From positions 1-64,000 of the forward strand of contig JAKFVN010000003.1 of NCBI GenBank assembly GCA_021732145.1: a stretch of DNA of 64,000 nt. Direction: 5' to 3'. Within the stretch, counting starts at the first letter, position 1, and every line of letters begins with the position of its first letter. Made by a program: the position numbers and the translations under genes. This document shows, in pieces, positions 5,027-10,944 of this stretch. Below the pieces are notes generated by a model. The model was not told where the DNA came from. It saw nothing but the letters and a program-made list of their open reading frames with translations, and did not search any database. This DNA is from Alphaproteobacteria bacterium (GTDB taxonomy: Bacteria > Pseudomonadota > Alphaproteobacteria > UBA9219 > RGZA01).

Positions 5027-6004
5027 ATGGCGCATGCAGCAGCAAAACCGACCAATCCCGTAGCGAATGCCAAGGACGTATTGGCAACCGAAATCCGTGC
5101 GCTTCAAGAACTCAGCGCCAGCCTTGATGAACGCTTCAGCAAAGCGGTTGAAATCATTGCCGGATTAAAAGGCCGGGTTGCCGTAACCGGCATCGGCAAA
5201 AGCGGCCATGTGGCGCGCAAGATTTCTGCGACGTTGGCATCCACCGGCACGCCTGCTTTTTTTGTGCACCCCGCCGAAGCAAGCCACGGCGATCTGGGCA
5301 TGATTACGCGCGATGATTGCGTGCTTGCGCTTTCCAATTCCGGCGAAGCCAGCGAATTATCGGACATCATTGCCTATACGCGCCGTTTCAGCATTCCGCT
5401 TATCGCGATGACCAGCGGCAAAGATTCCAATCTTGGCGGTCAATCCGATGTGGTATTGGAAGTTCCAAAAGCCGCCGAAGCCTGCCCGATGGGTCTTGCG
5501 CCAACATCTTCTACAACCATGATGATGGCGCTGGGCGATGCGCTGGCGGTTACCCTGCTTCACCGCAATGGCTTTACCAGCAGTGATTACAAGGTGTTTC
5601 ATCCAGGCGGCAAGCTTGGCCGTAAATTATTGTTGGTGCGGGATGTGATGCACACCGGCGATGCGGTTCCTGTGGCGGCGCCCGCAACCAAGGTCAGCGA
5701 TATTATCCTGATTATGACCAACAAGACATTCGGCTGCTGCGGCATTGTGGATAACAACAATATCCTGCAAGGCATCATCACCGATGGCGATTTACGCCGC
5801 CATATGAAGGATAATTTATTGGCGCTTACGGCGCAGGACATCATGACGCGTTCGCCTAAAACCATTGGCCCGCAAGCACTGGCCGTGGAAGCTTTGGGCA
5901 AGATGAATGAAAAGAAAGTCACCAGCTTTTTCGTGCTGGATGAACAAAACGCGGTGCAGGGCATTATCCGCATGCATGACTTATTAAAGGCAGGCGTAGG
6001 TTAG
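5027..6004 (+). CDS. kdsD: Arabinose-5-phosphate isomerase (KdsD/KpsF family)
   Basis: 325 residues. A SIS sugar-isomerase domain (about 35-170, with TGIGKSGHVARK near 54-65 and the conserved HPAEASHGDLG) is followed by two CBS domains (about 205-325). It converts ribulose-5-phosphate to arabinose-5-phosphate, the precursor of Kdo in the LPS inner core. ATAAGGAA lies 8-15 bases before the ATG. First gene of an LPS-biogenesis operon; lptC starts 7 bases after its stop. Confidence 0.94.
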   Translation: MAHAAAKPTNPVANAKDVLATEIRALQELSASLDERFSKAVEIIAGLKGRVAVTGIGKSGHVARKISATLASTGTPAFFVHPAEASHGDLGMITRDDCVLALSNSGEASELSDIIAYTRRFSIPLIAMTSGKDSNLGGQSDVVLEVPKAAEACPMGLAPTSSTTMMMALGDALAVTLLHRNGFTSSDYKVFHPGGKLGRKLLLVRDVMHTGDAVPVAAPATKVSDIILIMTNKTFGCCGIVDNNNILQGIITDGDLRRHMKDNLLALTAQDIMTRSPKTIGPQALAVEALGKMNEKKVTSFFVLDEQNAVQGIIRMHDLLKAGVG

Positions 6005-6011
6005 GGTTAGT

Positions 6012-6731
6012 ATGACCGAAGACAACCACAAAACAGATTGGCTGATGCCGGAGAACCGCATCGTGAGCGCGGGTTCCATTACGCGTTACAGCCGCATTGT
6101 GGGCACCCTTAAGCTTATCCTGCCCATTTCTGCTGCATGCATTTTATTGGTGCTGGTCGTATTGCCCAATGTGAATGGCAGCAATGTGGAGCCAAAAAAA
6201 CTCACCGCCGTTGATGCCGCAATGGTTGCGCCTGTGTATCAAAGCCATGATGCACAGAACCGCCCATACGAAGTAAAGGCCGATACCGCGCGCCAGCAAC
6301 CCAATGCGGCAGGCATCACCGATTTATCAAACCCCAAAGCGACGCTTGATTTGGATAACGGCAAAACGCTGGATGCCGAGGGCAAGGGCGCGCAATACAA
6401 TGAGAAAAACGGCACGCTGAATGTTCAAAAAGGCATCGTCATTCGCCACAGCGATGGCACGACCTTCACGACCGAAGAAGCACAGATCGATATGAACAGT
6501 AAAAATGCCGAAGGCGACAAGCCTGTTACGCTTCAGGGCAATTTCGGTGAAGTCAAAGGCGAAGGCTTCAAAGCGATTGATGGCGGCAAAACCATTATAT
6601 TCACAGGCCAAACATCAGCAAAACTCAAGATGGGTGGTGGTGGCTTGCCATCCATGACCAATCAAGGGCAAAATGCTCCTGCACAACCAACGCCATCAAC
6701 TCAACCAACGCAGCCAGCATTCAAGCCGTAA
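6012..6731 (+). CDS. lptC: LPS export protein LptC
   Basis: 239 residues: a cytoplasmic N-terminus, one transmembrane helix (about residues 34-52, LKLILPISAACILLVLVV), then a periplasmic LptC/OstA-like beta-jellyroll domain. The last ~35 residues are rich in P, Q and T. LptC bridges the LptB2FG transporter to LptA and passes LPS across the periplasm. Identity rests on topology and on its place between kdsD and lptA. Three bases separate it from lptA. Confidence 0.88.
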   Translation: MTEDNHKTDWLMPENRIVSAGSITRYSRIVGTLKLILPISAACILLVLVVLPNVNGSNVEPKKLTAVDAAMVAPVYQSHDAQNRPYEVKADTARQQPNAAGITDLSNPKATLDLDNGKTLDAEGKGAQYNEKNGTLNVQKGIVIRHSDGTTFTTEEAQIDMNSKNAEGDKPVTLQGNFGEVKGEGFKAIDGGKTIIFTGQTSAKLKMGGGGLPSMTNQGQNAPAQPTPSTQPTQPAFKP

Positions 6732-6734
6732 ATT

Positions 6735-7685
6735 ATGAATTATTTTTTATTCCCATTGGCACTTAGTGCTTTGATGCTTACCGCGCTTCCGCTTCATGCG
6801 GAAACCGCGCCGCCAGTTCAAGGTACAACCAGCCAGCCCGATGCTGCTTTTATTCCTGCCCATGACGATGCGCCAGCCCCTGCACAATCCACCGCAGAGA
6901 AGAAAGACCCTGCGCCAAACCTGTTTGGCGGTAAGGGTGGCGATGACGCAATTGATATCACCGCGGATAAAAGCCTTGAATGGCATGAGCAAGAACGCGT
7001 TTATATCGCATCCGGTCACGCCAAAGCCAAAAAGGGCGATGTAATGATTGAAGCGGATGTGCTGAAAGCCTATGACCGCAAGAAGCCCGATGGCACCAGC
7101 GAGGTTTGGCGCTTAACAGCCGAAGGCGGCGTAAAGGTAACCGGCAAAACGCAGACAGCCATTGGCCAGACAGCGGAATACGATATCGACACGCGCAAGG
7201 CCATTTTGCGCGGCGATAATCTGAAATTCCAAACTGCGACAGACACCGTGACAGCGCGCGACACGCTTGAATACTGGGAAATTGAAAACAAGGCGATTGC
7301 TAAGGGCAGTGCATTGGCCGTGCGCGAAGGCCGCCAGGTGAAAGCGGATGAACTCGTTGCGCAATTCAAGAAAAGCGCGAAGGGCGATTTGGTGGCAGAT
7401 ACCATGACCGCAAATGGCCATGTACGCATTACCTCTGCGAAGGATACAGTGATGTGCGATCAGGCGATTTATTATGTCACGCCCAATACCGCGACGTTAA
7501 ATGGCAATGTGTTTATCACCCAAGGCGTGAACCAGCTGAAGGGCGACAAGGTTGAAGCGAACTTCAAGACCGGAACCAGCAAGATTATGAATGCTGGCAA
7601 GGGCCGCGTCCACGCGCTCATTCTTTCCGCCAAGGGAAAACCAATGCCCAAGAATGAAACAAGCAAAGAGACGGAAAAAGAATAA
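6735..7685 (+). CDS. lptA: LPS transport periplasmic protein LptA
   Basis: 316 residues with a signal peptide (residues 1-22, ending LPLHA) and a low-complexity P/A/Q-rich linker to about 65. An OstA-type beta-jellyroll with repeating strands (DITADKSLEWHEQE..., RQVKADELVAQF..., GNVFITQGVNQLKGDKVEA) completes it. LptA forms the periplasmic bridge carrying LPS to LptD. At about 316 residues it is far longer than E. coli LptA (185). The extra length lies in the linker and additional strands, as often in alphaproteobacteria. Confidence 0.9.
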   Translation: MNYFLFPLALSALMLTALPLHAETAPPVQGTTSQPDAAFIPAHDDAPAPAQSTAEKKDPAPNLFGGKGGDDAIDITADKSLEWHEQERVYIASGHAKAKKGDVMIEADVLKAYDRKKPDGTSEVWRLTAEGGVKVTGKTQTAIGQTAEYDIDTRKAILRGDNLKFQTATDTVTARDTLEYWEIENKAIAKGSALAVREGRQVKADELVAQFKKSAKGDLVADTMTANGHVRITSAKDTVMCDQAIYYVTPNTATLNGNVFITQGVNQLKGDKVEANFKTGTSKIMNAGKGRVHALILSAKGKPMPKNETSKETEKE

Positions 7686-7691
7686 CCCGCC

Positions 7692-8474
7692 ATGAAAATC
7701 AAACCCATTCACGGCGAGATTACCACCGATGCGCTGCCCATTATCAGCGATACGCCGGGCCTGGCTGCGTTTAATATCGCAAAACACTATAAAAACCGCC
7801 CTGTATTACGCGATGTCAGCCTGGATGTGCAGCGCGGTGAAATCGTCGGCCTGCTTGGCCCCAACGGCGCGGGTAAGACGACTTTCTTTTATATTTTAAC
7901 AGGACTTATCAATGCCGATGCAGGCATTATGACTTTGGATGGTCATGATATCACCAGTCTTCCCATGTACCGCCGTGCGCGTTTGGGCATCAGCTATCTG
8001 CCGCAGGAAGCATCCATTTTCCGCGGCATGAATGTTGAAAACAACCTGCGCTCCGTTCTTGAAATTCACGAGAAAGACCAGCACCGCCGCGAAGCGATGC
8101 TGGATAGTTTGCTGGCTGAATTCTCCATCACGCATTTACGTCGCGCGCCTGCATTAGCATTATCGGGCGGTGAACGCCGCCGCGTTGAAATTGCGCGCGC
8201 GCTGGCCACGCGCCCCAGCTTTATCCTGCTCGATGAACCGCTGGCGGGAATCGACCCTATCGCGATTTCTGATATTCGTGAGCTTATTTTGCATTTAAAG
8301 GCCCGGGGCATCGGCGTTCTCATCACCGACCATAATGTGCGGGAAACCCTTGATTTAGTTGATCGCGCGACGATTATTCACGATGGAAAAGTGCTGATGG
8401 AAGGCGCGCCATCGGCAATTATTGCCCATGACGATGTACGCCGTGTTTACCTTGGCGAAAGGTTTCGTCTGTAA
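7692..8474 (+). CDS. lptB: LPS export ABC transporter ATPase LptB
   Basis: 260 residues. Walker A GPNGAGKT is at 57-64, the Q-loop is in YLPQEASIF, the ABC signature is [15 protein letters not shown], Walker B is [13 protein letters not shown], and the switch histidine is in [11 protein letters not shown]. The YLPQEASIF and DHNVRETL segments are typical of LptB. It powers LPS extraction from the inner membrane with LptFG, which are not in the window. About 25 residues precede the usual family start, so a later initiation is possible. The next gene is rpoN, as in many proteobacteria. Confidence 0.95.
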
Positions 8475-8486
8475 GGTTGTCCCTAG

Positions 8487-8503
8487 TTGGAACAATTCTT
8501 GCA
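8487..8503 (+). promoter_or_regulatory. Sigma-54 (-24/-12) promoter in front of rpoN
   Basis: TTGGAACAATTCTTGCA matches the sigma-54 consensus TGGCAC-N5-TTGCW at nearly all conserved positions. The invariant GG and GC are separated by exactly 10 bases. It lies between the lptB stop (8474) and the rpoN ATG (8529). The predicted transcript start at about 8514 leaves a short leader containing AGGA before the ATG. Confidence 0.75.
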
Positions 8504-8528
8504 TACAAACTTTTTTAGGATCACGGTC

Positions 8529-10028
8529 ATGGCTACAGGTAATCCCCAAGCATCGAATCCCCGCATGGAAATGCGCGGTTCCCAGGCTCTCCAGCAAAAT
8601 CTGGTAATGACCCCGCAGTTGCAACAGGCGATTAAGTTGCTGCAAATGTCCAACATCGAATTATCCAGCTACCTTGAAACCGAAATGGAAAAAAACCCAT
8701 TATTGGAAAAAGCTGATGAAAACGCGTTTGAAATGGATAGCCGCGATAGCGACGCAGGCAACAACATGCAAGACGATGGCAAAATCGTTGCCGCCGATAA
8801 AGCCAGCGACCAAGGCAATTACGAAAGCGCAGGCGACGATAGCAGCGATGAAGGTTCATGGAATTTATCTTCCCAAACACGCGGCGCAGGACATGATGGC
8901 CGCAATGAAGATGCAGGCGAACAGGAAAGCTCCCTCTCCCACGGCGTTAGCCTTCGCGACCATTTGATGGGCCAAATGCAATTGGATGTCGTTGACCAGC
9001 GCGAACGCATGATTGCGCTGATGTTGATGGATAGCCTTGATGAAGCCGGTTATATGACCGCCGACATTAATGTCATGGCTGAAAAGCTGGGCTGCGATGT
9101 GCAAAAAATTGAGGATGTATTGTGTCGCCTGCAAAAATTCGAGCCCGTTGGCATCTTTGCCCGCAATTTAAAAGAATGCCTTACCCTTCAATTGAAGGAA
9201 AAAGGCCGCTTCGACCCCGCGATGCAGGGGATGGTTGAACACCTCGATTTATTGGCCGCACGCGAAAAAGATAAATTAATGAAGCTGTGCGGTGTCGATG
9301 CCGAAGATTTTGCGGAAATGGTCAGCGAAATCCGCTGCCTGAACCCAAAACCAGCATTGGCGTTTGATCACGATACCGCGCCAACGATTATTCCTGATGT
9401 ATTGATGCGTGGTTCCGCCGCCAAGGGCTGGGTGATTGAGCTCAACCAGGAAACTTTGCCGCGCGTGCTGATTAACGAAAGCTATCTGTCAAAGGTGCAA
9501 GGCCAGGTCGTCAAGAAACAGGAAAAAGATTATTTATCCGAACGCGTGCAATCCGCCAATTGGCTGGTGCGCGCATTGCACCAACGCGCAACCACCATTT
9601 TGAAAGTCGCCAGCGAAATCGTGCGCCAGCAAGATATGTTCTTCCAGCACGGCGTTGAATTTTTAAAACCAATGACATTGCGTGACATTGCCAACATCAT
9701 CGGCATGCATGAATCCACCGTGAGCCGCGTGACATCGAATAAATACATCGCAACCCCGCGCGGCATGTTTGAGTTGAAGTATTTCTTCTCCGTTTCCATC
9801 AATGGATGCTCGGGTTTAAGCGCCCATTCAGCCGAATCCGTGCGTCACCGCATCAAGGCATTGATTGAAGGCGAAACGCCAAACGCCGTTTTATCGGATG
9901 AGGATTTGGTAAAAATTCTGAAACGCGAAGGCGTTGAAATTGCGCGCCGCACAGTTGCAAAATACCGCGAAGCAATGCACATCGCCACCTCCGCACAACG
10001 CCGCCGTGAAAAACGCATTAAAATCTAA
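8529..10028 (+). CDS. rpoN: RNA polymerase sigma-54 factor RpoN
   Basis: 499 residues. The N-terminal glutamine-rich activator-interacting region (QNLVMTPQLQQAIKLLQMSN) is followed by an acidic linker (about 55-130), the core-binding domain, and a helix-turn-helix (MHESTVSRVTSNKYIATPRG). The C-terminal RpoN box ARRTVAKYRE recognises the -24 element. ATG 8529 is preferred to 8487 because AGGATC precedes it and because the putative sigma-54 promoter overlaps the longer start. It needs AAA+ activators for open-complex formation; none is encoded here. The neighbours hpf and ptsN keep the classic order. Confidence 0.96.
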   Translation: MATGNPQASNPRMEMRGSQALQQNLVMTPQLQQAIKLLQMSNIELSSYLETEMEKNPLLEKADENAFEMDSRDSDAGNNMQDDGKIVAADKASDQGNYESAGDDSSDEGSWNLSSQTRGAGHDGRNEDAGEQESSLSHGVSLRDHLMGQMQLDVVDQRERMIALMLMDSLDEAGYMTADINVMAEKLGCDVQKIEDVLCRLQKFEPVGIFARNLKECLTLQLKEKGRFDPAMQGMVEHLDLLAAREKDKLMKLCGVDAEDFAEMVSEIRCLNPKPALAFDHDTAPTIIPDVLMRGSAAKGWVIELNQETLPRVLINESYLSKVQGQVVKKQEKDYLSERVQSANWLVRALHQRATTILKVASEIVRQQDMFFQHGVEFLKPMTLRDIANIIGMHESTVSRVTSNKYIATPRGMFELKYFFSVSINGCSGLSAHSAESVRHRIKALIEGETPNAVLSDEDLVKILKREGVEIARRTVAKYREAMHIATSAQRRREKRIKI

Positions 10029-10302: not shown

Positions 10303-10944
10303 ATGACGACACATGCACAACTGCCACAAAATGACGCAGCGCCAGCAGAACTGAAGATTCAAGTCAAAGGCAAGCAAATTGATGTCGGCGACAGCCTTCG
10401 CCAGCATGTCCAGCAGCACCTTTCCGATGTGGTCAGCAAGTATTTCAATACCCCGCTTGATGCCACTGTGGTGTTCTCACGTGAAGCCCATTTATACCGC
10501 GCCGATATTTCGGTGCACGCCGCACGCGGCATCATGCTGCAAAGCAATTATGCAGCAAACGACCCCTACCCTGCGTTTGATGAAGCAGCAGGGCGAATTG
10601 CAAAACGTCTTTCACGTCATAAAAAACGCTTGCTTGATATGCATCACCAAAACAATGACAAGCATGCCGCCTTCGAAGCGATGGTTGCGCGCAAATATGT
10701 CTTAAATCCTGAAAACGAAGATGCAGGCGCAGCGAACGAAGCGCACACACCGCTCATTATTGCAGAAACCACCACCGATATTGAACATTTAACCGTAAGC
10801 GAAGCGGTGATGAAGCTTGATCTGGCCGAATTGCCGGCCTTGCTTTTCAACAACCGCGCACACGGCAAGCTCAACATGGTCTATCGCCGCGCCGATGGAA
10901 ACATTGGCTGGGTTGACCCCGCCAATGCGACACCAAAGAAATAA
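10303..10944 (+). CDS. hpf: Ribosome hibernation promoting factor, long form
   Basis: 213 residues. The N-terminal HPF/YfiA domain (about 14-110, beta-alpha-beta-beta-beta-alpha) begins at ELKIQVKGKQIDVGDSLRQH. A variable linker joins it to a C-terminal dimerisation domain (about 155-213, containing LTVSEAVMKLDLAELPALLF). The long form dimerises 70S ribosomes into 100S particles in stationary phase by itself. AAGAAGG precedes the ATG by about 13 bases. Placed between rpoN and ptsN as in most proteobacteria. Confidence 0.93.
   Translation: MTTHAQLPQNDAAPAELKIQVKGKQIDVGDSLRQHVQQHLSDVVSKYFNTPLDATVVFSREAHLYRADISVHAARGIMLQSNYAANDPYPAFDEAAGRIAKRLSRHKKRLLDMHHQNNDKHAAFEAMVARKYVLNPENEDAGAANEAHTPLIIAETTTDIEHLTVSEAVMKLDLAELPALLFNNRAHGKLNMVYRRADGNIGWVDPANATPKK

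Follow-up and report, generated by a model that had tools for sequence, protein, structure and literature searches.

Genes and features around rpoN

The rpoN gene is the last member of a string of genes in the order kdsD-lptC-lptA-lptB-rpoN, with hpf situated 3' of rpoN. Positions refer to the window, which is the whole 64-kb stretch of DNA that was analyzed. The features are as follows.

5027 to 6004, forward strand: kdsD/kpsF family isomerase gene, the first gene of the string considered (TIGR00393 over cut-off)
6012 to 6731, forward strand: lptC (domain search)
6735 to 7685, forward strand: lptA (LptA/LptD_N domain)
7692 to 8474, forward strand: lptB, the LPS export ATPase, upstream of rpoN and co-directional with it (TIGR04406 over cut-off)
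8475 to 8528, forward strand: lptB-rpoN intergenic gap, 54 nt
8487 to 8503, forward strand: -24/-12 sigma-54-type element TTGGAACAATTCTTGCA, recognized from its sequence, its weight-matrix score and its conservation in three of three genomes of the genus
8514, forward strand: predicted sigma-54 transcription start, 12 nt past the C of the -12 half
8517 to 8520, forward strand: AGGA, the likely ribosome-binding site of rpoN as read from the sequence
8529 to 10028, forward strand: rpoN, sigma-54, 499 amino acids, with AID, core-binding and DNA-binding domains (Pfam; TIGR02395 over cut-off)
10303 to 10944, forward strand: hpf, which encodes a ribosome hibernation factor and lies 3' of rpoN (domain and NCBIfam searches)

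The element TTGGAACAATTCTTGCA has two mismatches to the consensus YTGGCACGNNNNTTGCW. Its GG (8489-8490) and GC (8501-8502) are separated by 10 bases and are embedded in TGGCACG-N4-TTGC, the context by which a sigma-54 promoter is recognized. A preliminary description of this DNA had given these letters, coordinates, spacing and mismatches, all of which were found to be correct upon re-reading the window. It had also placed the site in the gap before rpoN, and the site indeed lies between the lptB stop codon, which ends at 8474, and the rpoN ATG at 8529. The predicted sigma-54 site is immediately 5' of rpoN, an arrangement characteristic of an autoregulated rpoN gene.

The element was compared within a family of five genomes, three from the genus studied here (this genome, G003 and G004) and two from its sister genus (G001 and G002). 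From the TTG of the element to the rpoN ATG there are 42 nt in this genome, 35 nt in G004 and 45 nt in G003. A coding extension of rpoN from a TTG start at 8487 was considered and rejected: the reading frame is broken in G004, and the block is therefore not an extension of the gene.

With the start placed 12 nt past the -12 C, the predicted rpoN leader is 15 nt long in this genome, 18 nt in G003 and 8 nt in G004, where the start would cut into the GGAAA ribosome-binding site. The predicted first nucleotide in this genome is a T inside a T-run. The forward strand of the 54-nt gap has no terminator-like site, so that read-through from lptB into rpoN is expected and an extra promoter for rpoN is not required.

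An inverted repeat around GGCAATTATTGCC is present at positions 8407-8433 of the window, in the 3' end of lptB and 54-80 nt 5' of the element. Similar letters are found in the sister genus, possibly through codon conservation alone.

Frequency and conservation of the element

The mismatch count by itself is not significant for the rpoN site. The window contains 79 matches with at most three mismatches to the consensus, compared to 96 expected, and nine of the 79 have at most two. Because mismatch counting gave no significance, strict patterns applied to entire genomes and conservation were used instead. In a weight matrix for -24/-12 sites, whose base frequencies are approximate, the rpoN site has a score of 18.2, the highest on either strand of the window; the remaining four scores of at least 13 are all situated within ORFs.

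The strict pattern TTGGNACNNNNNTTGCA (TTGGNACN5TTGCA) was searched together with a backward version of itself as a control. It has five matches in the 2.09-Mb genome, with none for the control: at rpoN, at the flgB operon, at flbT behind a flagellin gene, at an unnamed gene and within an unrelated ORF. The proteins that we take to be FlgB and FlbT were named from their translations. G004, the closest relative, has two matches genome-wide, at rpoN and at the flgB operon (control 1), and G003 has four, including those at rpoN and flgB (control 1). The rpoN site shares its -24/-12 form with the flgB flagellar site of the same genome.

The sequence TGG(C/A)ACGCCGTTTTGC, with a spacing of 11, occurs twice in each form in this genome (G000:C3, C28, C34, C50; L095, L114, L118, L120). 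Two of the copies are at contig ends and perhaps represent a collapsed repeat.

The block TTGG[A/T]ACAATTCTTGCATA is retained in all three genomes of the genus, which agree in 18 of its 19 columns. They diverge in the remainder of the gap, in the flanking sequence and in how far the block lies from the ATG. Fourfold sites are identical across the same three genomes at 49 of 175 positions in rpoN (28%) and at 56 of 124 in lptB (45%). At the lptB rate of 0.45, the probability of at least 18 identical columns in 19 is about 6e-6, for a block that was picked after the fact. Conservation in three of three genomes indicates that the site is more than a chance occurrence, and the comparison supports selection on the sigma-54-type element before rpoN.

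The standard site is found in three of the three genomes of the genus versus neither of the two of the sister genus. In G001, GG and GC are separated by 12 bases (CTGGTGTGCAGAGTTTGCA), and no -24/-12 site was found upstream of rpoN in G002. The preliminary description had looked to relatives for conservation of the GG/GC pair, which thus holds within the genus but is lost beyond it, in the sister genus.

Orientation of the sites in Alphaproteobacteria

The 150 nt upstream of rpoN were scored with a threshold of 13 bits at loci taken from among the RpoN matches listed in 180 genomes, to the exclusion of G012 and of G048, whose match is at the end of a contig. Removal of L083 and L189, which have no assigned start, and of 29 redundant loci reduced the initial 256 loci to 225 regions. 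The 13-bit threshold was reached by 14 sense and 25 antisense sites, with no region having one of each, compared to 0.5 and 0.6 in Markov resamples. Two sense matches (L310 and L251) were dropped, as they are within lptB codons: the gaps before rpoN are 11 and 17 nt long, and the sites are at -122 and -128. The sense sites then number 12 in 225, and the antisense sites are about twice as common; 188 regions have no site in either orientation, all counts being uncorrected for shared ancestry. A plain pattern gave 9 sense and 22 antisense matches in the 225 regions versus 0.37 expected per strand, and the backward control had no match on either strand. Of the 33 genomes of the order, 29 allowed scoring, and a hand tally assigned a sense site to four (the three of the genus and G007), an antisense site to 16 and neither to nine. 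Whichever way it points, the sigma-54-type element seems to accompany rpoN.

Twelve of the 25 antisense sites are located at -66 or -67 relative to the ATG of rpoN. The upstream neighbor in these cases may be a divergent rimP, a co-directional gene or an unrelated one; the name RimP is our assignment from the translation. Because the neighbors differ while the distance stays, the idea that the antisense sites merely serve a divergent neighbor was rejected as a general answer, although it may hold in single cases.

Several features were observed at these loci. In L168, L169, L170, L171, L174, L176, L178, L180, L187, L017, L027 and L173, which belong to relatives of the same order, the antisense site keeps a constant position of about -67 to -50, and TTAA and CTA motifs recur between the site and the ATG. 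These motifs, 3' of the antisense sites, resemble a promoter for an almost leaderless rpoN mRNA. In L187, L180, L178, L170, L172 and L168, rpoN is divergent to a rimP-like gene and not behind lptB, and in five of these six loci a nusA-like gene is behind the rimP-like gene. Very strong sigma-54-type sites, scoring 21.6 and 20.2, are found at L362:2997-4131 and L356:900-916. They precede an unnamed protein (363 amino acids in L362) that has no NCBIfam match.

In the Rhizobiales and similar loci L051, L059, L061, L079, L083 and L085, the reversed site is within the lptB-rpoN gap. By eye, it is directly behind a -10-like TATAAG, TATATC or TAATAAG in several Rhizobiales loci, examples being L051 (Cohaesibacter), L061 (Pseudolabrys), L079 (Roseibium) and L083 (Sinorhizobium medicae).

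Autorepression becomes a serious, if rather unlikely, alternative for the element studied here in view of the reversed sites in relatives. The element would then be an operator, at which a closed complex of sigma-54 RNA polymerase blocks the lpt read-through or an rpoN promoter and holds sigma-54 constant. Its orientation would matter little and an activator would not be needed. Such a role is consistent with the frequency of antisense sites, never accompanied by a sense one, with their recurrence at -66/-67 despite differing upstream neighbors, and with the reversed site right behind a -10-like sequence in some Rhizobiales loci. It also agrees with the negative autoregulation reported for R. 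leguminosarum rpoN (PMC3538637) and R. etli rpoN1 (PMC3916325), in the parts of those papers considered. In both, sigma-54 acts on its own gene, as proposed here, but with a negative sign, and the likeness is drawn from the reported regulation. However, the genus studied here has a sense site with an otherwise normal promoter form, groups differ in where their sense and antisense sites lie with respect to the ATG, and a divergent gene, for example rimP, may be the target of some antisense sites.

A wider reading, offered tentatively, would join the two orientations. In Alphaproteobacteria the rpoN leader would often have one sigma-54 site, whose orientation would flip by lineage but which would stay close to rpoN. 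The polymerase would act as an orientation-independent autorepressor, and the sense form in this genus would represent conversion to an activatable promoter.

It is improbable that the block is retained for another reason, either as a sigma-70 promoter with an extended -10 around TTGCATA or as the site of another regulator. CATAnA comes next in all three genomes of the genus, and a short GAACAATTC inverted repeat is present in this genome and in G004. However, the repeat is broken in G003 (GTACAATTC), a consensus scan of the gap gave no sigma-70-type match, and both sigma-54 halves are at the right spacing, in a form that matches the flgB site. A functionless chance match, kept by a short divergence time, would agree with a mismatch count not above expectation in the window and with the missing site in the sister genus, but is very improbable given the near-identity of a block that was, however, picked after the fact and the recurrence of the site in distant relatives versus about 0.5 expected per strand.

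Candidate activator and proposed feedback on rpoN

The PF00158 profile identifies six places in this genome (G000), four of which are weak, with 20-28 bits and no GAFTGA. The two strong matches are FlbD and NtrX. FlbD has an intact GAFTGA and scores 753.5 bits against the NCBIfam equivalog NF050807, which has a cut-off of 750. In NtrX (L002:997-2433, reverse strand) GAFTGA is replaced by GANGAS, which makes this protein an unlikely activator of sigma-54 transcription. FlbD is the only enhancer-binding protein with an intact GAFTGA found in this genome. The preliminary description had linked the promoter to an AAA+ activator without naming one; as the sole such protein found, FlbD is the simplest candidate. 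G004 has a further GAFTGA activator (L196), so that FlbD is not the sole candidate there. Flagellin genes are present in 32 of the 33 genomes of the order.

A search of flagellar promoters for 7-mers in common, for inverted repeats and for GGCAA-TTGCC pairs recognized no conserved FlbD enhancer near rpoN. The GGCAA-TTGCC pairs are common everywhere, and no specific motif stood out.

In Caulobacter, FlbD and sigma-54 activate the middle and late flagellar genes (PMC3930126). The likeness to these promoters lies in the flgB site of the genome studied here, which shares its -24/-12 form with the rpoN site. The sections of that paper considered do not describe rpoN as an FlbD target, and, in contrast to the Caulobacter FlbD promoters, no ftr-like enhancer was recognized at rpoN in this genome. 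In the prxS-rpoN2 operon of R. etli and Mesorhizobium loti, a sigma-54 promoter likewise feeds an rpoN gene (PMC3538637, in part). That gene, however, is a symbiotic copy, activated by NifA and situated outside an lpt string, unlike the rpoN gene described here.

Autoregulation of rpoN by sigma-54 is already known as a kind of regulation. In a survey by class (PMC12316311, PLoS One 2025), rpoN was enriched in the sets of genes preceded by sigma-54 promoters in alpha-, beta- and gamma-Proteobacteria; its authors inferred autoregulation, with reference to Geobacter and Dokdonia. The rpoN promoters predicted there likewise have a sense -24/-12 site upstream, and the lineage of the present genome is not treated in the sections considered. 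The MAST scan of the survey, as described in these sections, was of one strand only (-norc), and reversed sites were therefore not seen. No paper describing a reversed sigma-54 site at rpoN was found in a literature search of works other than the original rhizobial rpoN papers, seen in part. The reversed sites in relatives are the less expected part of the present results.

The presence of a conserved sigma-54-type site before rpoN suggests that sigma-54 probably regulates its own gene. The preferred reading, to which a probability of roughly 0.55 is assigned from the sequence comparisons, is that the element is an FlbD-dependent sigma-54 promoter feeding back on rpoN, in addition to the lpt read-through. 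Basal transcription of rpoN would originate from read-through of the kdsD-lptC-lptA-lptB string. Once active, FlbD, the flagellar enhancer-binding protein, would work with sigma-54 RNA polymerase at the element, and additional rpoN transcription would start near 8514. The level of sigma-54 would thereby be raised at the time of rod, hook and flagellin gene expression. The earlier proposal that sigma-54 activates its own rpoN gene is thus retained in part. The conserved element, its likeness to flagellar promoters and the candidate FlbD argue for such a promoter, whereas the two sister-genus genomes without the site, the failure to find an enhancer, the 8-nt leader in G004 and the reversed sites in relatives, which would suit repression no less than activation, argue against it.

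If the sense element is active, flagellar assembly would set its own supply of sigma-54 through FlbD. This would be a clean, minimal feedback circuit in a small genome in which one competent sigma-54 activator was found. Should the reversed sites be operators, the negative autoregulation reported for rhizobial rpoN genes would have a basis in the sequence, and what one-strand surveys cannot see would be explained. If the orientation does flip by lineage, a single element would, by inversion, change the feedback from negative to positive or back.
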